Assembly (NCBI GenBank): GCA_947495975.1
Contig: CANMBE010000018.1
Coordinates: 1-45,173, forward strand
Reading direction: 5' to 3'
Length of the DNA: 45,173 nucleotides
Origin: Ignavibacteria bacterium
GTDB lineage: Bacteria > Bacteroidota > Ignavibacteria > Kapaibacteriales > Kapaibacteriaceae
How positions within the stretch are numbered: position 1 is the stretch's first letter; each line of letters opens with the position of its first letter. Made by a program: the position numbers and the translations under genes. The notes beneath the pieces were generated by a model. The model saw only the letters and a list, made by a program, of their open reading frames with translations, had not been told where the DNA came from and made no database searches. Positions 2,132 through 33,623 of this stretch are shown here, in pieces.

Positions 2132-3217
2132 ATGGACACTATAAAGACCATGAAAACCATGACTCGACTTGCATTCGCAGCTATTCTTTTGTGCATCTCA
2201 ACATCCGTTGCTTCTTCGCAACTTATTTCCGTGACTGCAGGAAACTTTACGAAGGTAGGCCTCGCAGGTGGGCAGTTCTTGAAGATTGGTGTAGGAGCGC
2301 GGGGTACGGGTATGGCAGGCGCCTACTCAGCTCTTGGCAACGACGTTACATCCATTTTTTGGAACCCCGCCGGTATTGCAGGCGTGGAGCGCTATGCTGC
2401 TGACTTTAGCCAAACGCTGTGGTTCGCAGGTATGACGCATAGCTTCGCTGCTGTTGTTATCCCCGTAGGAGAAAAGTTCCGCCTTGGTGCAAGCTTTACT
2501 GGGTTTAGCAGTGGTGATATCAACGTTACAACCACAGCGCAACAAGAGGGGAATGGCGGTATATACAATGTAAGTGACATCGCTATTGGTGTGACACTGG
2601 CAGGACATCTCACTGAACAATTCTCGTTTGGTGCAACTGCGAAGTACGTGCAACACGCTTTTACAAATATGTCAGCATCTGGCTTTGTGTTTGATGTTGG
2701 TACTCGCTACAACACAGGATTTAATGGACTGGTGCTTGGTTTCTCGATCAACTCGTTAGGTACACAGCAAGCATTCGACGGGCCAGACATTACTCGAACA
2801 AATCCTCCTGTGAACGGAACGAATACGAGCCCCCTAGACATGCAACTTCAAACTGCATCTTTTAGCATGCCACTTTCATTTCGTGCGGGCGTAGGTCTAG
2901 ATTTATGCAAAGGTGTTGTTTTTGAACAAGAAGTTGACGGTGATGGTGTACTTCAACATTCGTGGACAACGGCTTTTGATTTTGAAACGTATAGCGATGT
3001 GCCTGAGCAGTTTGCCATTGGTACTGAGTATACGTGGAAAGAATTTGTAAGTCTTCGTGCCGGTTACCGTTTTGGTTCTGATCAATTTGGACTCGCCGGT
3101 GGTATTGGAATTAGATACAATGGCGGCGGCTTTGATGGGCAGATTGATTATTCAATAAACCCTTCTCAAAATCTTGGTCTGATCAATAGATTTAGCGTTG
3201 CAATGCGCTTCAATTGA
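2132..3217 (+). CDS. PorV/PorQ family outer-membrane protein
   Basis: 361 residues. A signal peptide is visible (positive start, hydrophobic FAAILLCISTSVAS, cleavage near SSQ). The mature N-terminus carries the family signature: GGQFLKIGVGARGTGMAGAY followed by WNPAGIAG. The rest alternates polar and hydrophobic residues as in a beta barrel and ends in RFSVAMRFN, typical of outer-membrane strands. In Bacteroidota PorV shuttles T9SS cargo to the attachment complex; PorQ-like paralogues have related roles. The gene follows a sorting-domain protein by one base, so it is probably co-transcribed with its cargo. ATGs at 2150 and 2159 are alternative starts that still leave a signal peptide. A role as a general FadL/OmpP1-like porin cannot be excluded. 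Confidence 0.85.
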   Translation: MDTIKTMKTMTRLAFAAILLCISTSVASSQLISVTAGNFTKVGLAGGQFLKIGVGARGTGMAGAYSALGNDVTSIFWNPAGIAGVERYAADFSQTLWFAGMTHSFAAVVIPVGEKFRLGASFTGFSSGDINVTTTAQQEGNGGIYNVSDIAIGVTLAGHLTEQFSFGATAKYVQHAFTNMSASGFVFDVGTRYNTGFNGLVLGFSINSLGTQQAFDGPDITRTNPPVNGTNTSPLDMQLQTASFSMPLSFRAGVGLDLCKGVVFEQEVDGDGVLQHSWTTAFDFETYSDVPEQFAIGTEYTWKEFVSLRAGYRFGSDQFGLAGGIGIRYNGGGFDGQIDYSINPSQNLGLINRFSVAMRFN

Positions 3218-3241
3218 TCCACGGCTTATCGATGAACATGT

Positions 3242-3276
3242 ACAATGCCGCCGATCTTATGGGTCTGCGGCATTGT
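3242..3276 (+). terminator. Stem-loop between the PorV-like and GWxTD genes
   Basis: ACAATGCCGC (3242-3251) and its perfect reverse complement GCGGCATTGT (3267-3276) form a 10-bp stem with a 15-base loop. It lies 25 bases after the stop of the PorV-like gene and 18 bases before the next start. There is no T-run after it, so it may be a weak or Rho-assisted terminator, or an mRNA-stabilising hairpin that sets different levels for the two sides. Confidence 0.55.
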
Positions 3277-3293
3277 CATTTGCAAGCACAACC

Positions 3294-4721
3294 ATGAGTA
3301 TCAAGCGATTCTTATTCTGTATTTGCCTCACTATTGTTGTTGGGACAAACACTCCACACCTGTCATCTCAAACGCAACTTGATGTGATAGCAGATGTTGT
3401 GCAGTTTAGAGGGGATGGGGCACAGACACGCTGGGAGTTTCAGTATTCATTCGCAGATACTTCGCTTCGATATGTTTTGTCGCCAACAGGGTTCATTGGT
3501 GAGCTCCTCTGTACGTTGGAGATTGTGTCTGCGTTGAATGACACTACGCACGATGAGTGGATTGCTGCAGCAACAAGCATGCAGTCCGTCCCCGAACACC
3601 AAAAGTTTTTTACGGGAGTGCGCCCCTTGTCACTCACACCGGGCAAATACACGGTGCGGTTTACCGCCACTGATGTGCATCAGCGCTCTTCAACTATTAC
3701 AAGCAATTTTGTATCGACAGTGATGCCGTTTTCATATCGCCTGACGATGAGCGATGTGATGTTCGTGATGCCACGTAAAACTGGTGTGGATGATCGGTTC
3801 AATAGGAATGGTGAACCAGCGGTACCAAATCCGCGACATGAAGTAATCGGTAGAGATCCTTCGATCTGTATTTATGTAGAGATCTATAACGCGCTTCGCA
3901 ATAATGCTGACACGTTTGCTATTGAATTTCAGGTGCTCGATAATGTGCGTGAGGAACAACTCACGAGTTACATTCGTCAGGCAGGAGTGAGCGATGGTCT
4001 CGTCATACGCGACGAGATTCCGGCAGGCGCGTTACGCTCGGGAGTGTATACGTTGCGAATGCGCGTATTGTCCAATGACCTTGCCGTTGTTCATGAAACG
4101 CGCGAGGAACGGTTCTATATCCTTAACCCCGAGTTACCTCCAGAGGGCAGGATTATGCTCACTGAAGATGAAGAGTTTCAGGCCTCTGAGTGGTCGGTCA
4201 TTTCCGGAGAACGCCTTGCACATGAACTCGAACTCTCTGACGTGCTTGCATCCGATGCAGAAAAATCAATTCGTGTTCAATGTACCGATGATAGATCAAG
4301 GCAGCGCTTCCTGTACCGTTTTTGGAGATTGCGAGATCCAGATCCAACAACCCATAACAATGAGCGGCTTGATGAATTTAGAGCTATGTATAAACGCGCG
4401 CAGACGTTCTATGGCAATGCAATCTTTCGCAATGGTTGGAAATCAGATCGAGGCCAGGCTCTTCTACGATGGGGTATTCCCACCCAGGTAGAACAGTTCA
4501 TTGCAACAATTGATACAAAACCGTATGAGATATGGTTTTATCAGCATATTCAAGGTGGGGTTCATTTCTATTTTGTTGACTGGCAACTTTCACAAAATCA
4601 CCGCCTCGTTCACTCAACAATGCTCGGACAGGTTAGACAAACTAATTGGTTCAACCTCTATGCAAAGGCGTTCTCGCCAAATCCTACGCCACCTGAATCA
4701 CTTCAACCAACACAGCGCTGA
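3294..4721 (+). CDS. GWxTD domain-containing protein
   Basis: 475 residues. I chose the ATG at 3294 (MSIKRFLFCICLTIVVG, a clear signal peptide) over an upstream in-frame start at 3198 that would overlap the previous gene and the stem-loop. The C-terminal third contains GWKSDRGQALLRWGIPTQV at about residues 381-399, matching the GWxTD domain (GWxTDRG...YGxPD) with Ser for Thr at the fourth position. A charged region precedes it (DEFRAMYKRAQTFYG). GWxTD proteins are secreted or periplasmic proteins of unknown biochemical function, common in the FCB group. The stop overlaps the next start (TGATG), so translation of the acyltransferase is probably coupled. Confidence 0.8.
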   Translation: MSIKRFLFCICLTIVVGTNTPHLSSQTQLDVIADVVQFRGDGAQTRWEFQYSFADTSLRYVLSPTGFIGELLCTLEIVSALNDTTHDEWIAAATSMQSVPEHQKFFTGVRPLSLTPGKYTVRFTATDVHQRSSTITSNFVSTVMPFSYRLTMSDVMFVMPRKTGVDDRFNRNGEPAVPNPRHEVIGRDPSICIYVEIYNALRNNADTFAIEFQVLDNVREEQLTSYIRQAGVSDGLVIRDEIPAGALRSGVYTLRMRVLSNDLAVVHETREERFYILNPELPPEGRIMLTEDEEFQASEWSVISGERLAHELELSDVLASDAEKSIRVQCTDDRSRQRFLYRFWRLRDPDPTTHNNERLDEFRAMYKRAQTFYGNAIFRNGWKSDRGQALLRWGIPTQVEQFIATIDTKPYEIWFYQHIQGGVHFYFVDWQLSQNHRLVHSTMLGQVRQTNWFNLYAKAFSPNPTPPESLQPTQR

Positions 4722-5593
4722 TGAGCTTTGCTGAGTGGATCACAACCAAAAGTTTGCTGGCACTCGGAAGTGTGGCTCAAGCGCTTTCGCATGTATCACG
4801 TCAGCGCCTTGGTTCGTTTCTAGGCAGACGTATGATGGGGCTTTCTCCGAAACGCAGAGCAATCACAGCCGATAATATTGCACAAGCAATCCCACATCTC
4901 GATTCCAAAGCACAAGCGCATGTCATGCGCAGATCTTACGAGAACCTTGGGATTGTCATGACGGAACTCTTGTGCATCCCTGCGATGAACAAGTCAGAAC
5001 TTACAAGCATGGTGAAGATTCCGGGTTTTGAGCGCGTTCTCGATAGACACCGCCAAGGAAAACCAACCATTTTTCTTTCTGCACACTATGGTAATTGGGA
5101 GTACCTTGCAATCACGGCAGGAATACTTCTCAACGCTCCTGTTACAATCGTTGCTCATCCGCAGTCGAACGCTGCAATAGACCAACGCATCAATAGTTAT
5201 CGCACTCGCTTTGGAAATGAAGTGATCGCAATGGGCGAGGCGGCTCGCCCCCTTGTAAAAACACTTTCTGCAGGCGGCACTGTTGCGTTTCTTGTTGATC
5301 AATACGGTCAACATGATAAAGACCCGTGGATAGAATTTATGGGTAGGCAAACACCAACCTACGAAGCCCCCGCAGCACTTGCTCTGCGATACAACGCCCC
5401 AATATTTTATGCGTTTGCTGAACGACTACCTGATGGAAGCTATCATGCGCCCATCAAGGAGCTGCCAATGGACGACCTAAAGAACGATCATAGCGGAATA
5501 GTTGAACTCACAAAACGTCACGTACGTGTCCTTGAAGATGCAATCCACATCTGCCCCCACTTGTGGTCGTGGCAACATCGTAGATGGAGATGA
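4721..5593 (+). CDS. LpxL/HtrB-type lysophospholipid/lipid A acyltransferase
   Basis: 290 residues, the usual length for the LpxL/LpxM family. The catalytic H-x4-E motif is HYGNWE at residues 122-127, preceded by IFLSA. Downstream are FLVDQYGQHDKDPWIEFMGR, the region after the second conserved block of the family, and a basic C-terminus (WSWQHRRWR) typical of these enzymes. The known reaction is transfer of a secondary acyl chain to a lipid A precursor at the inner membrane. The N-terminus (ITTKSLLALGSVAQALSHVS) could be the membrane anchor. The start overlaps the previous stop by one base. The following glycosyltransferase gene overlaps in ATGA, so both probably serve lipopolysaccharide or another envelope glycolipid. 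Confidence 0.85.
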   Translation: MSFAEWITTKSLLALGSVAQALSHVSRQRLGSFLGRRMMGLSPKRRAITADNIAQAIPHLDSKAQAHVMRRSYENLGIVMTELLCIPAMNKSELTSMVKIPGFERVLDRHRQGKPTIFLSAHYGNWEYLAITAGILLNAPVTIVAHPQSNAAIDQRINSYRTRFGNEVIAMGEAARPLVKTLSAGGTVAFLVDQYGQHDKDPWIEFMGRQTPTYEAPAALALRYNAPIFYAFAERLPDGSYHAPIKELPMDDLKNDHSGIVELTKRHVRVLEDAIHICPHLWSWQHRRWR

Positions 5594-6675
5594 CGAGTAG
5601 AACAATGACAACAAAATACATTGTTGTGCAGACGGCATTTCTTGGCGACGTTCTCTTGACGCTGCCACTGTGCGGAGCTATCAAACGCATGGACCCAACG
5701 GCGCATGTTGTTTTAGTTACCACTCCGGCTGCGTGTGAATTTGTGAAGGGGCTCCCAGTTGTAGATGAAGTTGTGGCGTTCGATAAGCGTGGCCAACACC
5801 GCTCGCGGGCTTCGCGCAAAACCTTTGCATCGTCATTGAACGCTCATGCCAACACGGTTGTAATTGTACCGCATAAAAGTGTGCGAAGCATGCTACTCGT
5901 GCGCTCCATGAAAGCACAACGGATTGTCACATATTCGGATGCTGCCACGAGGTGGATTGCTACCGATGTTGTGCCGTATCCACTACATATGCTCGATGCT
6001 AGGAGGCATCTTGCTCTCCTCAATCCGCTTGGAGCTGAAAAGTATACGCTAGAATCACTGGTGCCCATTTCACTTCAGTCTCATGCAGACGAATCGTGGG
6101 CCAACGTTGAGTTGCGAGCAGATACTGGCCCAATTGTAGCACTTGCGCCAGGGGCTGCGTGGCCTACAAAGCGCTGGCCCATTGCATATTTCCGTGCGTT
6201 GGCTTCAAAGTTGGTTCAGAGCGGCGCGCAGGTGGTTATAGTGGGAGATTCGTCTGTGCAGGGCGCCATGGACGGCATCTCTGGGGTCATTGATCTTGCG
6301 GGAAAAACTACACTTCGGCAGGCTGCCGCTATTATAGCCCGCTCCAATGTCGTAATTTCGAATGATAGTGCTCCGGTGCACCTTGCATCACTTCAGCACG
6401 TGCCTGTTGTGGCATTGTTTGGACCAACGGTACCGGAATTTGGATTTGCCCCATTTGGACCAAATGTACAGGTGATTGAACGCGCCAACCTAGCCTGCAG
6501 ACCCTGCAGCGCACATGGTTCGGAACGTTGTCCACTCGGCACTCATGTATGTATGACAAAAATCTCGGTGGACACTGTATTCGATAGTGTTCATCATTTC
6601 ATTCACGCTCACGATGAGAATCGCAATGCGTCAGCAAAAACCACAACGTCCAGCCAAGAAGACTTCCCGCACTAG
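5590..6675 (+). CDS. Glycosyltransferase family 9 (heptosyltransferase-like)
   Basis: About 361 residues from the ATGA overlap at 5590; in-frame ATGs at 5584 and 5605 are alternatives, and 5605 gives the most family-like N-terminus (MTTKYIVVQTAFLGDVLLTL). Two Rossmann-like halves are visible: the N-terminal GDVLLTLPL loop and, in the C-terminal half, LAPGAAWPTKRWPIAYFRAL, then SNDSAPVHLASLQHVPVVALFGPT, the nucleotide-sugar-binding signature of GT9 (WaaC/WaaF). A late cysteine-rich stretch (CRPCSAHGSERCPLG) is also usual in this family. The known role is adding heptose or a related sugar to the lipopolysaccharide core in the cytoplasm. Its position next to an acyltransferase agrees. The actual sugar cannot be read from sequence. 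Confidence 0.85.
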   Translation: MTSRTMTTKYIVVQTAFLGDVLLTLPLCGAIKRMDPTAHVVLVTTPAACEFVKGLPVVDEVVAFDKRGQHRSRASRKTFASSLNAHANTVVIVPHKSVRSMLLVRSMKAQRIVTYSDAATRWIATDVVPYPLHMLDARRHLALLNPLGAEKYTLESLVPISLQSHADESWANVELRADTGPIVALAPGAAWPTKRWPIAYFRALASKLVQSGAQVVIVGDSSVQGAMDGISGVIDLAGKTTLRQAAAIIARSNVVISNDSAPVHLASLQHVPVVALFGPTVPEFGFAPFGPNVQVIERANLACRPCSAHGSERCPLGTHVCMTKISVDTVFDSVHHFIHAHDENRNASAKTTTSSQEDFPH

Positions 6676-24637: not shown

Positions 24638-26812
24638 CTACCTCGCAGTGACGCTTTCGCTCATCTTTGACTCAGCCCCCTGATTACACAGCACCTTAAT
24701 AGCGTAGACGATTCCCCGAGCAGCGTCCTTAACGTCAATAAACTCGCGCTGGCGTTGGTCCTTGATAATTGCGAACGACTCTAGAGTATTGGGAGTAGAA
24801 GAGGTGCGCGAGTTTGCTGTGTTTTTGTAGATCATAAAACTGAACGGCTCGCCAATGTCACTGTACGTCCACTGAAGACGAACGGTCTTCGCTACAGAAT
24901 CATACTCAGCGCGCAATCCACGCACGGGCGGCCTTTTGCCATTGTCATATCGAATCAAGGTTACAATGTTGGAAAGGGGCGAATGGTTGCCTGCACTATC
25001 AACAGCCACGATTGTATACTGATAGGTAGCCGCCAATGCGCCCGATGTATCAACAACAACGCTGTCCAAATTGCCACCACGCATGAGTGAATCCCATGGC
25101 ATGCTGAGTTCATCATTGTTGATGTAGGCACGACGCTGGATGATATGGTGCCGCACGTCCTTGCTACTGCTGCGATTGTATTGGAGAACTACGCTGGAAT
25201 CTGTGACCACATAGTCTGTGATCACCGGGGCAACAGGCGCGATGATGTCTGGACGGGGAACTGCTACGATGTTGCTTAACTCCGATTCGTTGAAATGATA
25301 GTCGAGAGAAACAACGCGGTAGTACACATATTTCGTTAAGGTGCGAATCTCTACGGTGTCTGTGATAATGGTGTCGCCTCGCACCAGTGCTGAATCCTCG
25401 TTAAACAATTCACGCTTGACAGAGAACTCATGCGTTGTGTCATTAGCAATCAATAACCGATACCCCATCACGTCGGATTCATACGGATGACGAATCACAA
25501 CACGTACCACACCAGCAGAATCCATCGTCCCATTTACAAGCACTGCAGCACTGGGCGCAATGCTATCTGCAAATGCCACGTAAACGGAATACGATACACT
25601 GCCGTTCTTTGCAGTGTCCACAGCCACTACTTGATAGTAGAGCGTATCGCCGAGCGTAGCTGACGTATCCACGTATTTGCGGGATTGAGGGGCAAGGGGC
25701 TGGGTGTTCAACAACTGAAACGTGCCCTCTTCTGAGTTTGATCGCTGAATGTAGAATCCAACAAGATCACGAGGTAAAGATTCTGGCATGTCCCACGTTA
25801 TTGCTACATCTGCCTCTTGAACATGCTCAGTGCGCACACCTGTTGGAGTTGGCGGTGGTGTAAGATCACGTGGCATTGCTTTCATCATGCTGATCTCGTC
25901 AACCTCTGCAAAGGAGTTGTTGCCCATTATCCGATAGTGGTACGTTGTATAGTTGACAAGATTTGAATCAATCCAACCATTGGATTCAGAATCAATTGTT
26001 CCTTGACGCAGAGTTAGTATCGGTGATACATTGCGTTTCGCAAAATTCTTTCCGTCTGTCGATCGATACACATCAAACGTGGAATGGCCCGTGGTGTTAT
26101 CCCACGTCAGCACGACACGTGTATCCAACTCTAGTGCGGTAAGTCCCGCATCGTTCTTCTTTGTGTCAATGGGGCGGGCGGCTACGTTAGTTTGGGCAGG
26201 TGCAACAATGTAGGGCGCAGTAGAGCCGGCCACCGAGATTCGGTATTGATAGGGCGTGCCAAGTACTGCGGTCTTATCAACGTATCGCATCCCAAGTCCA
26301 TTTGCAGCAACTCTACTTCGCTCGGCCACAATCAAAGCAAATGAGTACGCCATTTCCGACTTATTTCTGCTCCCTCGCAGCGCCGCAAGGTCTCCAGGGT
26401 CAGAAGCCGTAGAGTTTGCAGGTGCTTCATCTTGCTCCGTTAGCATACTTGCAACAGCAATCAATTGTTCTTCTGTACTATCGGCATATGCATATGCCTG
26501 TAAAAATGTAGACCACTGTTGTGGCGACCAGGGCTTTACCACATCTGCAGATATTGCACTGAATGCACCAACAGTGCCGTTGACAATCTCCGCTCGCTCA
26601 ATGCGAAACCCTTGTGCCTTTGCAATGCGCCACATTGCAGCGTTGTTCGGCGCCCAACGCAATACAACACTATCAGCATATCGTTTGGCAATCCCCTTCA
26701 TCTGAAGACGAAGTGCACTGTTGAGATCTTCGTCTGATTGCGATAATGTATGATGTGATGCCACAACAAATAGGAGTGTTGTGAGCAGCGAGACACGCCA
26801 GAGCTTGCCCAT
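24638..26812 (-). CDS. Secreted fibronectin type III repeat protein
   Basis: 724 residues from ATG 26812, with a signal peptide (WRVSLLTTLLFVVASHHTLSQ) and a purine-rich AAAGGACG site upstream; an in-frame start at 26875 would run into the neighbour. Residues 25-210 are a helical region (MKGIAKRYADSVVLRWAPNN). Four or five FN3-like modules follow, with recognisable 'P..P..l........v.l.W' starts (PPTPTGVRTEHVQEADVAIT, APVAPVITDYVVTDSS, KRPPVRGLRAEYD) and 'Y.Y.i.avD..gn.S' ends. No T9SS sorting domain is seen at the C-terminus. FN3 modules act in binding at cell surfaces. The gene is 25 bases after the TANFOR-like gene, so they are co-expressed. Confidence 0.8.
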   Translation of the reverse strand: MGKLWRVSLLTTLLFVVASHHTLSQSDEDLNSALRLQMKGIAKRYADSVVLRWAPNNAAMWRIAKAQGFRIERAEIVNGTVGAFSAISADVVKPWSPQQWSTFLQAYAYADSTEEQLIAVASMLTEQDEAPANSTASDPGDLAALRGSRNKSEMAYSFALIVAERSRVAANGLGMRYVDKTAVLGTPYQYRISVAGSTAPYIVAPAQTNVAARPIDTKKNDAGLTALELDTRVVLTWDNTTGHSTFDVYRSTDGKNFAKRNVSPILTLRQGTIDSESNGWIDSNLVNYTTYHYRIMGNNSFAEVDEISMMKAMPRDLTPPPTPTGVRTEHVQEADVAITWDMPESLPRDLVGFYIQRSNSEEGTFQLLNTQPLAPQSRKYVDTSATLGDTLYYQVVAVDTAKNGSVSYSVYVAFADSIAPSAAVLVNGTMDSAGVVRVVIRHPYESDVMGYRLLIANDTTHEFSVKRELFNEDSALVRGDTIITDTVEIRTLTKYVYYRVVSLDYHFNESELSNIVAVPRPDIIAPVAPVITDYVVTDSSVVLQYNRSSSKDVRHHIIQRRAYINNDELSMPWDSLMRGGNLDSVVVDTSGALAATYQYTIVAVDSAGNHSPLSNIVTLIRYDNGKRPPVRGLRAEYDSVAKTVRLQWTYSDIGEPFSFMIYKNTANSRTSSTPNTLESFAIIKDQRQREFIDVKDAARGIVYAIKVLCNQGAESKMSESVTAR

Positions 26813-26837
26813 GATGTTCGTCCTTTGGTTGCGGTAC

Positions 26838-29800
26838 TTATTTAACACTGTTATTCGGAGCATTGTTGTTCGCAATCACTAGCGGTTTTGGCGTAAAGAA
26901 AACACCAGAAACTGTCTGCACGATGTTCTGGTTTGTAATCTTAGATTTAGCAATTGCCCATTGATTACCCGGCATGAGCTCCCATAGCGTACCAACCACA
27001 ACTACGCGATATCGCTTATCAAGCTCCCAATCCAGGGTGGACGTTCTAAAAATGTCTACACTAGAGTTGTCATAACTGAATGAGTCGTTTTCCGTTGGTG
27101 GCGGAGTGGGCTCGTTTGGGTTGGTAAATTTATCCTTCAGTTTGGCAAGCGCTAAGCCGGAAGGCCGTGGCTTTGCAACAGTAACCTTTACCGGATTGAA
27201 TTGTGGCGGTGCGTGGTTAACATTGGCCATAACGGGCTCAGCTGCAATGATTGTCTGCGCGTTGATTACGGTGCTTGATTTACGTCTAAAAAGATATGCG
27301 CCCAGTGCATCCTTCGTACTCTGCATTGCAAGGGGCGCCCACGTCTCTGCATTATATCCTTCAACAGTGACGGTATATTTTACTTGGAAGGTACGATTGA
27401 CAGTATTGCCCGACGCTCCACCCTGTTGCTCGGTTAACTCAAATGCGGTATTTGGCTTAAACGAATAGTTAACTGTTACAGGCTCGGCGAGTGCAACATT
27501 CATTGAGTTATGTGTTGGTGTGACTGAGTGAATCAATTTTGTTGATTGCTCAGCTCCTACATCTTCAGCGGCTACGGTGACTGCGACCGGAGGCGCCGGT
27601 TCGCAACGCGTACCCACGTTAAACTCTGCGCTGAAGGAGCCTGTGAATGCTCCATCAAGCACGTCATAGCTTCCTGCACCCTCACCCACAATCCATGAAT
27701 GATTTGGGAAGCCAGCTTCGGCCCATGCACCAAATTTTATGGTCGCAATATTAAACGTACATCCATCTGGATGCTTCAGTGTGCAACAAACCAAACATCC
27801 ATCGCTGATTTTCTTTGGAGTGATATAGACACTCGCACTTGCCGTGGCATATGCTGCAACGTTCGCTTGCACGTACCACCAGTTCATTCCATCGCCACCG
27901 CAAAGTGAGCCATTGGGATAACGCAACAACGAAGCGTTAAACTCAAAGCCCCCTGCAAATCGCCACTTTGCCTTGAGTCTCCAAACGATATCTCTTAGAC
28001 GTTCACCAGAGTCGAAGCCCACATCAAGCCCACCCGCAAAACCATTGCCTGATATGGCTCCCGTAGTGCCAGATGATGATGGCGTCATACTAGAACATCC
28101 AACACTTGCCAACCCGTCGTACGTGCGCTGTGTAAATCCGGTAGGGGGCGTAATGTTCTTCCCAAACATGAAGTACGAGCTTGCTGCGATTGATGTACCA
28201 AGAAAGTTGACAGCAAGAGTACACCTCTCAGCAGGCGGAGGACTTCCAAGCTTTACGTACCAGACTCCTGTTTTACCTTCGAGATGGACCTTAAGGTCTG
28301 CGTATCCCGTGACTGGAGGTTTGTTTACGGTCATCGTTGCATTGAGATCAAAGATCTGCGTTGTAAAGTCATATCCAATCTGAAGCATCCCCTTAACAGG
28401 AGCTGTTGCGCGCTCCAACAACTTGGCCTGCATCCATAGATCACCAAGGAATGCAATTGTTGTCATACCTCCAGACTCTGAGAACTGACCCGTTAGCGCA
28501 ACGTCTGCATTCAACTTTGCCGGATCGGGACTAGTGCCCAATACAGCAAGCACTTTGAATCCAAAGCCAATCGTGCGGTCGGGCGTCATTGCCGCACCAC
28601 TTCCGGCAGCCGATGTTGCTGTTGTTGCTCCTGCAACTGCATTTGCGTTTGGTTTTGCACCCATCATATCAACTGAAACTCGTCGCCACGCACTTGCGCC
28701 AAAACCATAGAATGCATATCCCGGAAGAAAGCCAATGCCAGGTGGAGGCAACATGGCCTTGGCATCCACGTACCAATACCTATAGCGAGTATTCGTATTG
28801 TCAACCTTTGAACCAAATCGCGCTGCCGCATCTATCTGCAATTCCATGGCCTTAAACTTTGCCTTGATCGCTGCAGCAAATCCCGTACCCCATGTTGGAT
28901 CTTCATTGTAGATATTGAGCGTGCCAGTCATCTGCACAGCCGGTAGCGTTGCGTGCAGAGTAATCTTGGAAACGTTGAAATCAATAAACTTTGGACGGAA
29001 TTTGAAAGCGGCCCCTGGCGTGCTCTTTTCAACAGCGCCCGTAAGGTCAAACGAGCCCTTTCCTCCAATACGATTTGAATCTAAACTGACAATCACATCA
29101 AAACTTAGTTTGCCCCTAAATAGCTCTTCTCCCTGCGGAGTAAGCGTTGCAAATTTTATCTTGTCGATGGTCACAGGGAATTTCGCAATCTTCTTCTGCG
29201 GACTCGCAAATGACCATTCGCCAATAGAATAGTCAAACACATGTTTTGCAGAATCATCATACGACGCTCTCATGTTTTCAAAGTCGGGCGAGAGATCTAG
29301 TGCAATCTTTTTCGGACCTACCTGAATATCAACTGCATTCCATCCGGCAGAACCGTTTAGCACCAGTGCAAATTTCTTGCGATTTTTAGCAATGCTCATC
29401 GTTAGTGAAGAAGATGGAAGCAATGTGAGCTTTGCTCCTGCAAACAATCGCATGTCAATGGGACCTACCGGACTCAGCGAGAAATCAAAAACCTTGAGCG
29501 TGCCGTTGAACAGAGCCTTGTAGGCAATTGCGTTCTGAGGTGTTGAGTCGGTAATCGGCAATAGTAGCCTTCCGCGTATGTACGCAGATGTTAACCCCGA
29601 GTTTATCATCTCAACTTTTACTGTATCAACGCTTGCACTCAACCGATTCAAACTCGCATTCGGAAATTGAATGATGTTTACACCAAGAAGTGTTCCTGTG
29701 AAGCCATTCTTATTGATAATCAATTTGTTGGCGATGAACTCCGGTGCAGAAACAGTGTCGGCAAAAGTCTTCCATCCATCAGGCATCCACATTCTGATTG

Positions 29801-31814
29801 TCTTTGCATAGAAGCCATTAAATGTTGCGTCTGTTGTGCCAGTATAGTTAGTAGGAAATACAATACCAGGTGGGTTCTCAACATCGCTATGATCATACAC
29901 GAGTGTATCTATGCGAAGCCCCATACCATTCGTACCAACAAACGTACTTGCAGGCAGCGTGCCAATGAGCAACCATTCTTTCCACTTCGTAACCTTGCCT
30001 CGCAGGGTTGCGATGGTTTGTTTTGTAGAATCTGGATCAGGTCTCGGCGTCATCCACGCCCGAGGAAAGGCTACATCAAGATCAATAGACATCGTATCGC
30101 TGTTGTTATCGCACCCAAATGCCACGTAGCAACCCGGACGCAACGTAGATGGCGCACGAGCGGTGACAGCAAACGTTGGTTGGTTTGAGGTAAGCCCCTT
30201 TACATCGATATCGGCAAGGAGTTCAAGGCGAGAAGACTTGCCAATTCCTTCAGGGCATATCGGTATTTGATTTAAGCCGAAACTTAACGTGTCATCAAGT
30301 TTTGGAAGGGGCACCGTGGCTATCATCGCCATGAGTGCGTTGTCCTTCATAAAGAGGAACTCAGAAATGCAGATCGTATAACCGCTGATGTTGTTGAAAC
30401 CGAGTGGAACCTTAAGGGGCGTACTCATGCTATTGACCGACTTCACAAGGCTTCCCTTCAGCTTTATAAAGTCATCAACCCAACTCACCATCTTTTTTGT
30501 CCAGTTCCAGCTCGTTGCCTGATTGATTGCCCACTGTTGAGGATACTGTGGGGCGGATGCATCAACTTCCGATGATACGTCACCCTTATAAACTTGTTTA
30601 GCAGCGTTCACTTTAAGAGAATCAAACGTAACAAGCACTCGTGCAAGTAGCCACGGAATTGTGATCTCGCCTTTACCAGAAAGGCGTGCATATGGAGCGC
30701 TTGTGAGTGATATGATCTTCAGTGTAAACCGTCCGATGGAAACAGAATCACCCGGCGCGGCGTTACCAGCAGCGGCTGTTGTATCTGAGATAACAACAGG
30801 ATAGCTGCACTGCCCGCAAGGTAGACCTGGTGGTGTTACATACACAGAATTTGAAGATGCCTCTTCGCTGGTGGTAGTGTCGCCAGCAACAGCTATTACA
30901 TCAGAGCTTTTTCGTTGGGATCCTGTATCGCGTGAGCGAGTGACAACATTTCCTCCGTCCGTTGTATTGACATCGGTGATTGAGACACGTGGAGTTGCAG
31001 TATGAAGCACAAAAGGAGTTGCGTAGCCATTGGGTTCACCAATACTTTTGCCCGCGTCATCAAACGCACGAACTGACCACACGAATCGATTTTGTTGGCT
31101 AGCAAGATCAATATCAGGAGGCCACAAAAATTGAGTTACGAGAATATCTGGTGCATCAATAATTGGTCTGTTTACCCGGAAAGCAGTGATAGGTGTTTGG
31201 CCTGGCATCACTTCAAACAATTGAAAACGATAGCGCACCGGTGTGACGGGAGCAGGGGAGACTGCCGTCCAACGAAAGAGCGGCCGTTGTGCGGCACGCA
31301 TACTATCGCCATCAGCAGGATACATCAGCACCGGCGATTGATAGCTCTGAATAGTAAAGCTTTTGCACACAGGTGCGGTAAGCACGCCTCCAGTATTGGG
31401 TTCAATGAGACCTACGCAGAACTCATAGATTCCTGCCGGAAGCATACCAGTTTTTAATGCAGTCTGTTCAGCATTACCAATAATGCGAACTGCTTCAAGT
31501 GGTATAAGATCTTCGCCATAAAACATCGTCACACCTGGTTGTAGTGTGAGCAGCGCCATGCTCTCGCGTTTTGTATTAGCAAGGAGAGTCCCATTCTTGT
31601 TCACCTTGCAATCAAATTTTGCGTTGACCGCACTTTTAGACGTGTTGGTAACAGTCACAAAGACAATGTCTTTTCGCTGCGACCAATTCGATAGATATGG
31701 ATCTGGCCGCGAAGAAAGATTGAGCGACACTCTCAACTGTCCAAAACCTGCGGTTGCACTGAGCAGGAACAATACGCAAAACATCAGTAACGAGTAAGGG
31801 GCTTTCTTCTTCAT
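26838..31814 (-). CDS. Giant TANFOR-domain-like secreted protein
   Basis: 1658 residues. The signal peptide is clear (KKKAPYSLLMFCVLFLLSAT) with a GAGGT site before the ATG. Residues about 25-280 resemble the TANFOR N-terminal region: SSRPDPYLSNWSQRKDIVFV, then MLPAGIYEFCVGLIEPNTGG and LMYPADGDSMRAAQRPLFRW. The middle (about 330-1250) is a long beta-rich stretch of repeated 'fgg'-like strands with many Gly, Thr and Ser. A cysteine-rich part (SDGCLVCCTLKHPDGC) lies near residue 1380. The end has two Ig-like 'PxxNSMNVALAEPVTVNYSF' type modules. No known enzyme motif is visible. TANFOR proteins are large Bacteroidota surface proteins of unknown function. It sits between a barrel gene and an FN3 gene. 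Confidence 0.7.
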   Translation of the reverse strand: MKKKAPYSLLMFCVLFLLSATAGFGQLRVSLNLSSRPDPYLSNWSQRKDIVFVTVTNTSKSAVNAKFDCKVNKNGTLLANTKRESMALLTLQPGVTMFYGEDLIPLEAVRIIGNAEQTALKTGMLPAGIYEFCVGLIEPNTGGVLTAPVCKSFTIQSYQSPVLMYPADGDSMRAAQRPLFRWTAVSPAPVTPVRYRFQLFEVMPGQTPITAFRVNRPIIDAPDILVTQFLWPPDIDLASQQNRFVWSVRAFDDAGKSIGEPNGYATPFVLHTATPRVSITDVNTTDGGNVVTRSRDTGSQRKSSDVIAVAGDTTTSEEASSNSVYVTPPGLPCGQCSYPVVISDTTAAAGNAAPGDSVSIGRFTLKIISLTSAPYARLSGKGEITIPWLLARVLVTFDSLKVNAAKQVYKGDVSSEVDASAPQYPQQWAINQATSWNWTKKMVSWVDDFIKLKGSLVKSVNSMSTPLKVPLGFNNISGYTICISEFLFMKDNALMAMIATVPLPKLDDTLSFGLNQIPICPEGIGKSSRLELLADIDVKGLTSNQPTFAVTARAPSTLRPGCYVAFGCDNNSDTMSIDLDVAFPRAWMTPRPDPDSTKQTIATLRGKVTKWKEWLLIGTLPASTFVGTNGMGLRIDTLVYDHSDVENPPGIVFPTNYTGTTDATFNGFYAKTIRMWMPDGWKTFADTVSAPEFIANKLIINKNGFTGTLLGVNIIQFPNASLNRLSASVDTVKVEMINSGLTSAYIRGRLLLPITDSTPQNAIAYKALFNGTLKVFDFSLSPVGPIDMRLFAGAKLTLLPSSSLTMSIAKNRKKFALVLNGSAGWNAVDIQVGPKKIALDLSPDFENMRASYDDSAKHVFDYSIGEWSFASPQKKIAKFPVTIDKIKFATLTPQGEELFRGKLSFDVIVSLDSNRIGGKGSFDLTGAVEKSTPGAAFKFRPKFIDFNVSKITLHATLPAVQMTGTLNIYNEDPTWGTGFAAAIKAKFKAMELQIDAAARFGSKVDNTNTRYRYWYVDAKAMLPPPGIGFLPGYAFYGFGASAWRRVSVDMMGAKPNANAVAGATTATSAAGSGAAMTPDRTIGFGFKVLAVLGTSPDPAKLNADVALTGQFSESGGMTTIAFLGDLWMQAKLLERATAPVKGMLQIGYDFTTQIFDLNATMTVNKPPVTGYADLKVHLEGKTGVWYVKLGSPPPAERCTLAVNFLGTSIAASSYFMFGKNITPPTGFTQRTYDGLASVGCSSMTPSSSGTTGAISGNGFAGGLDVGFDSGERLRDIVWRLKAKWRFAGGFEFNASLLRYPNGSLCGGDGMNWWYVQANVAAYATASASVYITPKKISDGCLVCCTLKHPDGCTFNIATIKFGAWAEAGFPNHSWIVGEGAGSYDVLDGAFTGSFSAEFNVGTRCEPAPPVAVTVAAEDVGAEQSTKLIHSVTPTHNSMNVALAEPVTVNYSFKPNTAFELTEQQGGASGNTVNRTFQVKYTVTVEGYNAETWAPLAMQSTKDALGAYLFRRKSSTVINAQTIIAAEPVMANVNHAPPQFNPVKVTVAKPRPSGLALAKLKDKFTNPNEPTPPPTENDSFSYDNSSVDIFRTSTLDWELDKRYRVVVVGTLWELMPGNQWAIAKSKITNQNIVQTVSGVFFTPKPLVIANNNAPNNSVK

Positions 31815-31835
31815 AGTTGACCTCAGGAAGCGTGA

Positions 31836-33623
31836 TCAGAACGAGGTTGTAAGAGCGAGCTGCAGCAGACGTTCAGAGAATGATGAACCGCGAGATGCAG
31901 GATTACCGTATATATATTGATTGTTGCCGTAGCTGACATTGAAATTTGTGGTTTTTGTAATGCGCCACCGCACTGCTGCCTTAAAGAACATTTGTGCATC
32001 GGTGGCAACGGCACCAAGAGAGCTGCTGCCAATTGTAACAGAGAGCGAGGGCACAACATCGCCATTGAGAAAGCGATACGAAGCCATCGCTCCCAGGGAG
32101 CGCACAATGAACATACCCGTAAAGAGAACGTTCTCCAGATAGGATCCGTTAATACCAATGCTTATTGGAATTGACTTTAGAGAGCCAAGGTAATTGAGCG
32201 TTGCGCTTCGTATGTCGTTAGAGCTTTCTACACCAGAGACTACATTGTAATCTTCGTATGTGTCTAGACTAACACTTGCATTTACCGCATGCATTGCACT
32301 TTCGCCATCAATCATGAGAGCCGGCTCGATGCCCATGGACTGGCTCACATTCTGAATGCGAAGCGTGTCGAGATCGCGACTATTTCGCACACCGTAATTG
32401 GAGTATCGTAAGAGCGTTGTGAATTCTTCAGTGATTTGTGCGTTGATGTTTCCACTAAGGAGCATCATCGACATTGTCTCGCCCTTTGTTTCAGAGAGGT
32501 TATTTATGCGATAGCCAACGGTGCCGTTGAATGTAAGGTTGCCTTCAAAGAGTCTCAATGACGGAGCTACGCGAAACTCAAGTCTGTCAGACTGTTGATA
32601 TGGTTGTGTGATGGGCGCATAACCTGCGCCAAGAAAAAGTGCATTGAGTGTGATGCCCCATACGTCAGCGTTTACGATAAGTGCAGCGCTTCCTGCATAG
32701 TCAACACGTGTAGACGTGCGTGTGGTCATGACGAAGTCTATCGGATTACCGTCGATACGTGTAACATTAGCTGTTGCGTCTCGTGTGAAGCTCGAGATCG
32801 CACCTTCTGCCGTGAACTTTACTCCCTTTGCAATGCCAAAGAGCACATCTGCTGTGGCCATGAATCCTTCTTCGGGGCGCAGGCGAATTGTATCGGCGGG
32901 CAGTACGGTGGTTGAATCTCCATCAATCACGCGTGGCGGGATAATGGAGACGATATTATTTTGAAGAGAGGAGGCGTCATCTTTTGAGTACGCAACATTC
33001 ACACCAACCGTAATCTCGTCATTATCTGCAGTGCCCACGCGGCCCATGTACATGTCTCGTCGGTACGTTGCATTGGACCCACCCGATGAATCCGGTTCAA
33101 CAGCACGTTGCACAATGCCCCCTGAAGCAGCGAGTCTCATGCCCAGAGGTTGCAGATCGAATCCTGCACCGAACAGCGGCAGATCTGAATTTGAAAGCGG
33201 AGAATATTGAGGTGTGTGAGAGCCGAGGTAGAACTGAGCCCATCCGATGCGCGGCGCAATGCTTGAGAAACCAAAAGCATTTGCGGGATTTAGAATGTAT
33301 TCGCCCAAGGACGGGTTTTGAATGATTGGTGTGGTTACGTTCGTTTCTGGAAGCGTAAGCATGATGTTAAATGGAATCGCGAAAAGTCCACCAAACGTAA
33401 TCGTTGGATTAAAGACAAGACGATATAATTGCGTAGGTCGGCGACCTTTTTGTGCTGCCAACGGATCTGACGTATAGTCGTAAAAATCAGCAGTCAGAGA
33501 CGCGTTCCCCGAAACGCTCACCCACGGCGTATTCTGCGTTGAATCTGCCGGACGCTCCTCTTGCGCCACAGCCCACGCCGTGGTTAGAATAAGCATAAGG
33601 AATATTGATGTACGGAGTCCCAA
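31836..33623 (-). CDS. Outer-membrane beta-barrel protein, first gene of the TANFOR block
   Basis: 595 residues. The only possible start is the TTG at 33623, because an in-frame stop lies five codons upstream; it gives a good signal peptide (MGLRTSIFLMLILTTAWAVAQ). The mature protein begins with VSVSGNASLTADFYDY and is a run of alternating strands with turns rich in Asn, Asp and Gly. It ends RLLQLALTTSF, the aromatic-terminal signature used by the BAM machinery. I do not recognise a specific family, but size and pattern fit a large barrel. It is 21 bases upstream of the TANFOR-like gene, so it is the likely membrane partner of that protein. Confidence 0.75.
   Translation of the reverse strand: MGLRTSIFLMLILTTAWAVAQEERPADSTQNTPWVSVSGNASLTADFYDYTSDPLAAQKGRRPTQLYRLVFNPTITFGGLFAIPFNIMLTLPETNVTTPIIQNPSLGEYILNPANAFGFSSIAPRIGWAQFYLGSHTPQYSPLSNSDLPLFGAGFDLQPLGMRLAASGGIVQRAVEPDSSGGSNATYRRDMYMGRVGTADNDEITVGVNVAYSKDDASSLQNNIVSIIPPRVIDGDSTTVLPADTIRLRPEEGFMATADVLFGIAKGVKFTAEGAISSFTRDATANVTRIDGNPIDFVMTTRTSTRVDYAGSAALIVNADVWGITLNALFLGAGYAPITQPYQQSDRLEFRVAPSLRLFEGNLTFNGTVGYRINNLSETKGETMSMMLLSGNINAQITEEFTTLLRYSNYGVRNSRDLDTLRIQNVSQSMGIEPALMIDGESAMHAVNASVSLDTYEDYNVVSGVESSNDIRSATLNYLGSLKSIPISIGINGSYLENVLFTGMFIVRSLGAMASYRFLNGDVVPSLSVTIGSSSLGAVATDAQMFFKAAVRWRITKTTNFNVSYGNNQYIYGNPASRGSSFSERLLQLALTTSF

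Follow-up and report, generated by a model that had tools for sequence, protein, structure and literature searches.

The window analysed here, a 45,173-nucleotide stretch of DNA from a member of the Ignavibacteria, raises the question of whether three neighbouring genes, for an outer-membrane beta-barrel-like protein, a giant protein and a multi-FN3 protein, work as one unit, and by what route and to what end the giant might reach the cell surface.

Layout and family searches

Three genes in one direction with gaps of 21 and 25 bases had been described in the initial annotation of this DNA, and we confirm this layout, with all three on the minus strand in the order barrel, giant, FN3 protein. 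Within the giant we distinguish an N-terminal domain (Ndom), a body and a tail:

31836..33623, minus strand: outer-membrane beta-barrel-like protein, 595 aa, TTG start, C-terminal Phe
26838..31814, minus strand: giant, 1658 aa, ATG start
30990..31745, minus strand: Ndom (giant residues 24-275), distant relative of the TANFOR N-domain, linked to the barrel across the phylum
27600..30812, minus strand: body (giant residues 335-1405), without known family, its length 1043-1093 residues in 17 relatives
26841..27599, minus strand: tail (giant residues 1406-1658), length varying by lineage, toxin domain not found
24638..26812, minus strand: multi-FN3 protein, 724 aa, counted from ATG
30990..33623, minus strand: barrel and Ndom stretch, apparently exchanged as a cassette in relatives and taken as such in the window by homology only

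The mechanical reading frame of the FN3 gene is longer (745 aa from a TTG, overlapping the giant by 38 bases). Putative signal peptides, judged by eye, stand at the N-termini of all three proteins, and the trio is under purifying selection (dN 0.07-0.27; dS 1.0-3.9 or undefined through saturation; 11 pairs). Scans for promoters (13 found, 14.2 expected) and terminators (13 found, 10.2 expected) gave results close to chance.

A check against profile databases, proposed in the initial annotation, matched neither the barrel nor the giant to any Pfam or NCBIfam family at E up to 1, and gave the FN3 protein a single sub-threshold Pfam fn3 match (22.8 bits; cut-off 25). The profile of the FN3 family matches FN3 chains in PDB, and PDB sequences searched with profiles of the whole giant, the barrel family and Ndom gave no match. 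In barrel-family reading frames whose 3' end falls inside the fetched stretch, the C-terminal residue is Phe in 48 and Trp in 3 of 68. A PorV-like protein is also encoded in the window. We rejected the barrel as a relative of PorV (barrel family against the window's PorV-like protein, hhalign probability 0.1%), of BamA (0.2% against the E. coli protein) and of FadL, for which the comparison gave no support. AlphaFold models of the body and the barrel, built from three-row alignments, reached a mean pLDDT of 26.8 and 28.0 and were discarded as useless, so the fold, topology and docking of the barrel are read from sequence alone.

Conservation of the three genes as a unit

Homologues of the three genes are not scattered in related genomes, which bears out the earlier claim that they form one unit. 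Across 296 genomes of the phylum, 92 of 114 Ndom matches have a barrel match within 20 kb (both at E<=1e-20), with a median distance of 466 bases between match edges, and a barrel is present in 67 of the 67 genomes with Ndom; 22 of the 114 Ndom matches stand without a barrel inside that distance, and an Ndom is missing for 19 of the 104 barrels. These counts cover matches at E<=1e-20 (114 Ndom, 104 barrel), weaker ones having been dropped, and match numbers are lower bounds, with at most eight Ndom, four barrel and two body candidates scored per genome. At 56 loci with more than 2.5 kb on both sides, the barrel lies on the strand of the giant in 46, the FN3 gene in 46 and both in 38, with none on the opposite strand; the FN3 gene stands within 200 bases 3' of the giant in 40 of the 56. 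Since these loci were hand-picked from match lists, some because both genes were listed, 92/114 is the least selected count. The linkage counts place the association of the trio beyond chance, and it looks like one conserved outer-envelope device across a large phylum.

The genes also join and split. Ndom and barrel are fused in three loci, with Ndom N-terminal (L089, L090 and L092), and Ndom and body are separate genes within one locus in L099, L101, L102 and L119. A distant barrel paralogue adjoins CHASE2 genes in L103 and L105, the latter with a cyclase domain, as might be expected of a module for sensing or uptake with no part in antagonism. We regard this as very unlikely for the trio, beside which there is no cyclase or regulator in the window; the scanned neighbours match DUF3050, SPFH, DUF1232 and pyridoxal-dependent decarboxylase.

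Joint divergence of the barrel and the N-domain

Between L039 and L040, loci of two related species, barrel and Ndom form one divergent island amid conserved genes. The two upstream genes are 99% identical in amino acids (differences at 4-fold sites 0.18 and 0.26), and the body (96%; 0.42), tail (88%; 0.46) and FN3 protein (92%; 0.32) are likewise conserved, whereas the barrel falls to 64% and Ndom to 65%, each with 4-fold differences of 0.70. An equivalent jump at barrel and Ndom separates L040 from L041, the two copies within genome G001; this genome is a draft, and its second copy comes from a contig of 7.7 kb. The barrel and Ndom of L041 are 78% and 82% identical to those of L042, from another species, versus 66% and 69% to those of L040; its body is 97% identical to L040 and 87% to L042. 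In these relatives, barrel and Ndom thus look as if exchanged as one cassette. For the window, comparison with L048 gives 65-70% for barrel and Ndom with unrelated bodies, and comparison with L037 shows no cassette-like contrast (Ndom 68%, barrel 66%, FN3 64%, body 79%). The barrel co-varies with FN3 as well: partial correlations are 0.60 between barrel and FN3 given the body, 0.76 between barrel and Ndom, and 0.76 between FN3 and body given the barrel. As the barrel adjoins Ndom, one recombination tract could move both without functional pairing. The exchange and the Ndom-barrel fusions nevertheless lend support to the barrel as partner of the giant, as first suggested.

We therefore favour, with a probability of roughly 0.6, the reading that the trio makes up one outer-envelope complex, an outer-membrane presentation module in which barrel and Ndom are cognate partners. 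The barrel would sit in the outer membrane, Ndom would dock on it, and the body and FN3 protein would provide a more constant scaffold; physical association, the side of the membrane and display at the surface are presumed. The FN3 protein may, as the initial annotation suggested, decorate the giant.

Relation to TANFOR toxins

TANFOR proteins had been introduced in the initial annotation as lacking an assigned function, yet one has been proposed for them: TANFOR (TIGR02542) is the N-domain of a published Bacteroidetes polymorphic toxin class (Jana, Salomon, Bosis 2020, PMC7073777). The description of the giant as TANFOR-like stands through its relatives, the giant itself having no match to the NCBIfam profile TIGR02542 at E up to 1 and nothing at the locus matching it at E<=0.1 (PMC7073777 used RPS-BLAST). 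Ndom relatives within the alignment match TIGR02542 at E 1.5e-13 and 9.8e-12, and relatives of the giant that are 25-28% identical over up to ~1400 residues reach at most 53.2 bits, under the 67-bit cut-off. Judged from these sequence intermediates, Ndom is a distant TANFOR relative. No protein above the cut-off was found in the 296 phylum genomes, and linkage was for this reason tested with the Ndom profile; a search of 219 genomes of one family at E<=1e-10 found none either and, lacking any positive, is not proof of absence. At E<=1e-5, TIGR02542 occurs in 6 phylum genomes, of which 5 also have the body, one (G309) by a weak match.

Two distant relatives carry DNA-cutting toxin domains. The giant of L099 ends in an AHH nuclease and is followed by an Imm11-like neighbour, and that of L118 ends in a colicin/pyocin DNase (PDB E 2.6e-34) beside a 66-aa protein resembling colicin immunity proteins (E 0.002). 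When the last 350 aa of 85 giants were scanned, a nuclease toxin domain was recognised in only 2. We rejected a toxin in the tail of the window's giant, since its C-terminal 350 aa match no Pfam family at E<=0.001 and the tail is conserved in five close relatives (45-58% identity); directly 3' of the giant there is no immunity gene, the FN3 gene following 25 bases on. Because two other Bacteroidota genomes pair nucleases of Ndom giants with immunity-like genes, the class plausibly serves contact-dependent antagonism, to which related loci point at least as much as to the fibre, adhesion or motility apparatus first imagined. The window's copy may be a surface-displayed adhesive or recognition protein without a recognised toxin, or a carrier of unrecognised cargo.

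The toxins also bear on whether the complex leaves the periplasm at all. Barrel termini normally face the periplasm, and in the fusions Ndom precedes the barrel; the barrels of L097, L098, L117 and L119 (815-819 aa) extend some 250 residues past the barrel match, and the trio has no sorting signal. All this would suit a never-exported complex of envelope structure, with Ig-like and FN3 proteins tethering the barrel from inside. We find it improbable, as nuclease toxins with immunity-like genes make little sense in proteins that are never exported, and the divergent imported barrel-Ndom blocks resemble surface-exposed variation.

Export route

As the initial annotation stated, none of the three proteins carries a T9SS sorting domain (TIGR04183; type B PF13585), though the genome has 77 TIGR04183 matches, 66 of them over cut-off and none on this contig. 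A CTD was found in just 1 of 135 giant and FN3 C-termini (85 giant ends and 50 of 60 listed FN3 ends). The giant and the FN3 protein could still be T9SS-exported, the giant as an adhesin, through an unrecognised signal, with the barrel as a PorP/SprF- or PorV-type shuttle or anchor. This route was proposed for TANFOR toxins by Jana et al. (PMC7073777), type B substrates are commonly encoded adjoining their shuttle, according to PMC12618676, and SprB-repeat proteins with Por_Secre_tail lie at L097, L098 and L117. SprA, the T9SS component searched, is encoded in the window's genome (E 4.2e-202) and in every one of the 67 genomes with Ndom at E<=1e-20, but this co-occurrence is confounded because SprA is widespread (229 of 296 genomes) and, among 20 SprA-negative genomes listed, 19 come from a single family (f28), 47 further negatives standing outside that list. 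Given also that the window's barrel has no Pfam match and no likeness to the PorV-like protein, we think T9SS export unlikely.

The presentation module that we favour would export its giant without known T9SS sorting signals, and a dedicated barrel-dependent route may exist. In a bolder and doubtful form, barrel, FN3 protein and body would be an apparatus devoted to exporting and displaying TANFOR-type giants, among them toxins, independently of a CTD, with Ndom as an N-terminal signal read by its cognate barrel and swapped between strains as a specificity cassette. If true, Bacteroidota would have a route of secretion across the outer membrane apart from the T9SS. For the export of TANFOR toxins their discoverers could only suggest the T9SS (PMC7073777), the one paper with TANFOR-specific terms among 5.39 million PMC papers, and the words "barrel" and "porin" are absent from its main text. 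If the set is TANFOR partner machinery, the barrel-Ndom cassette is a natural swap experiment, and export, docking and specificity become testable by single deletions.

Comparison with known systems

In two-partner secretion (TpsA/TpsB), the N-terminal domain of a giant exoprotein is recognised by a barrel encoded alongside. The trio is similar in combining such a domain with a neighbouring barrel that may recognise it, and differs in that the barrel has no similarity to E. coli BamA (hhalign 0.2%) and, lacking a Pfam match, no Omp85/POTRA, unlike TpsB. With T9SS type B substrates and PorP/SprF (PMC12618676), it shares the pairing of a surface-protein gene with the gene of a specific outer-membrane partner; here, however, the giant has no CTD, the pairing element would be N-terminal, and Pfam gives the barrel no match to PorP/SprF. 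Compared with the TANFOR toxins of PMC7073777, the window's giant lacks a TIGR02542 match, a toxin tail and an immunity gene. What it shares with them is a TANFOR-like N-domain at the head of a protein that is very large and apparently secreted, FN3 genes alongside and a T9SS in the genome, and its relatives add a toxin with an immunity-like gene (L099 and L118) and SprB-repeat/CTD genes within the locus.

Organization and conservation of the three-gene block

Three consecutive genes had been proposed by the initial annotation to form a block, and we find them all on the minus strand of the window, separated by gaps of 21 and 25 bases:

within 24638-33623, minus strand: barrel-like protein gene, 595 aa
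within 24638-33623, minus strand: giant gene, 1658 aa
within 24638-33623, minus strand: FN3 protein gene, 724 aa

Searches of Pfam and NCBIfam returned no family name for the barrel or the giant, while the PDB matches of the FN3 family profile are FN3 chains, among them those of titin and receptor phosphatases. The left window edge (2132-4721) holds a PorV-like gene (PF19572) and, after it, a gene whose match to the GWxTD domain is sub-threshold. An alignment of 17 sequences divides the giant into parts:

residues 24-275: N-terminal domain (Ndom), followed by a linker
residues 335-1405: body, 1043-1093 residues long in 17/17 sequences
C-terminal to the body: tail, of variable length among the 17 aligned sequences

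Across the phylum, we surveyed 296 genomes and found the barrel in at least 112 (E<=1e-10), Ndom in at least 78 (E<=1e-5) and the body in at least 34 (E<=1e-6), with G014, G019 and G309 counted among the latter by weak matches only. The giant was matched (E<=1e-3) in 34 of the 40 nearest genomes, many matches covering the N-terminal part alone. Comparing gene order between genomes, we observed that the trio is kept together, as the annotation had supposed: with both at E<=1e-20 in the 296 genomes, a barrel lies within 20 kb of 92 of the 114 Ndom hits, and 85 of the 104 barrels have Ndom nearby. In 40 of 56 fetched loci with enough flank, partly chosen rather than random, no more than 200 bases separate the giant from the FN3 gene on its downstream side; on its upstream side, the barrel lies within 250 bases in 31 of the 56. 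Because the genes flanking the trio vary among fetched loci and are alike in near relatives only, we regard the trio as a conserved unit. It is real, conserved and under-described, and in our judgement, which is not computed, its three products act together (probability about 0.9).

Some of the weaker barrel matches belong to a distantly related paralogous family; four members were fetched (801-922 aa; L103, L105, L104, L106), and hhalign relates the two families with probability 100% (E 9e-39). In L103 and L105, the paralogue is flanked by a CHASE2 gene, accompanied in L105 by a cyclase domain, and by a gene weakly matching Lsa33/LipL45 models (sub-cut-off). Giants broken into separate frames in L038, L031, L044 and L046 (genomes G004, G009 and G020) suggest that in some genomes the gene has decayed or was misassembled. 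Other Ndom giants (L109, L110, L111, L124, L126, L129) reach ~3850 to 4150 residues, with bodies of unknown kind; that of L110 is cut by the fetched stretch, and open frames in the Ndom search reach 6423 aa.

Probable exchange of barrel and Ndom in relatives

Divergence of the trio is uneven along its length in locus L039 (genome G010) versus L040 (genome G001), and also between the two G001 copies.

Identity and 4-fold degenerate site differences, L039 vs L040; 4-fold sites differing, two G001 copies
Two genes upstream of barrel: 99%, 0.18 and 0.26
Barrel: 64%, 0.70; 90/141
Ndom: 65%, 0.70; 63/98
Body: 96%, 0.42; 109/521
Tail: 88%, 0.46; 47/141
FN3: 92%, 0.32; 39/262

The contrast between the G001 copies is strong (Fisher p 2.7e-35), and their divergence changes at ~residue 280-320. 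Such raised synonymous divergence points to a probable import of barrel and Ndom, and not merely to fast protein change. Moreover, barrel and Ndom of the second G001 copy (L041) are 78% and 82% identical to those of L042, which is from another genome, but 66% and 69% identical to those of L040; for its body the order is reversed (97% to L040, 87% to L042). Neither L039 nor L040 showed a synonymous contrast to L042 (0.52-0.73 in every part), as expected near saturation. The window and L048 (G002) share 65-70% identity in barrel and Ndom, with unrelated bodies. Given the body, barrel correlates with Ndom at 0.76 and with FN3 at 0.60 (120 pairs, not independent). We found no divergent barrel-Ndom island in the window's own close pairs; against L037, identities are 68% (Ndom), 66% (barrel), 64% (FN3) and 79% (body).

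Ndom is joined to the barrel N-terminus in one protein in L089, L090 and L092, and Ndom and body are separate genes within one locus in L099, L101, L102 and L119. These fusions and splits suggest joint action of barrel, Ndom and body, and we judge, rather than compute, that barrel and Ndom are probably direct partners. Other arrangements include L108, where an M43 peptidase gene and an OmpA-domain protein accompany the barrel and the Ndom proteins are small (289-690 aa); L130 and L133, with a 675-694 aa gene (TPR-rich in L130) between FN3 and barrel; and L113, where the gene after the FN3 gene (5320-6069) has phage-tail collar and Gp10 C-terminal domains.

Export, toxins and relation to TANFOR proteins

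The trio was said to lack a clear T9SS sorting domain, and indeed none of the genome's 77 sorting-domain matches (66 over cut-off) lies on the window's contig; the genome does encode the T9SS marker SprA. SprA is present in 229 genomes, including every one of the 67 with Ndom at E<=1e-20; this co-occurrence has no power to separate dependence from ancestry, since 19 of the 20 SprA-negative genomes listed (47 more being unlisted) belong to one family.

Two of 85 scanned giants carry a recognised nuclease toxin at the C-terminus. In L099 (barrel, body, FN3, Ndom giant, Imm11-like gene), the Ndom giant ends in an AHH nuclease (5.4e-12) and the following gene weakly matches Imm11 (0.00078, sub-cut-off). 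In L118, the C-terminus of the Ndom giant is a colicin/pyocin DNase (Pfam 5.9e-42, PDB 2.6e-34); next come a 66-aa ORF resembling colicin immunity proteins (E 0.002) and a 336-aa barrel-matching ORF, and the adjoining stretch L096 carries this genome's body and FN3 genes. SprB-repeat proteins with a T9SS C-terminal sorting domain (CTD) occur in L097, L098 and L117, from the same bacterial family as L118. With only two such giants in 85, a cargo can be named for few of them, and not for that of the window. By judgement rather than computation, we hold the odds that antagonism is the class function to be even, and consider it unlikely that the window's own copy delivers a toxin.

The likeness of the giant to TANFOR proteins holds for its relatives (25-28% identity to the window giant over up to ~1400 residues), which match TIGR02542 with at best 53.2 bits, below the 67-bit cut-off, but not for the window giant itself, which has no TIGR02542 match. 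T9SS export of TANFOR proteins is proposed rather than demonstrated in the published account of the class, according to which these are large proteins of Bacteroidetes whose C-terminal toxins are polymorphic and near which FN3, SprB-repeat and CTD domains are enriched (PMC7073777).
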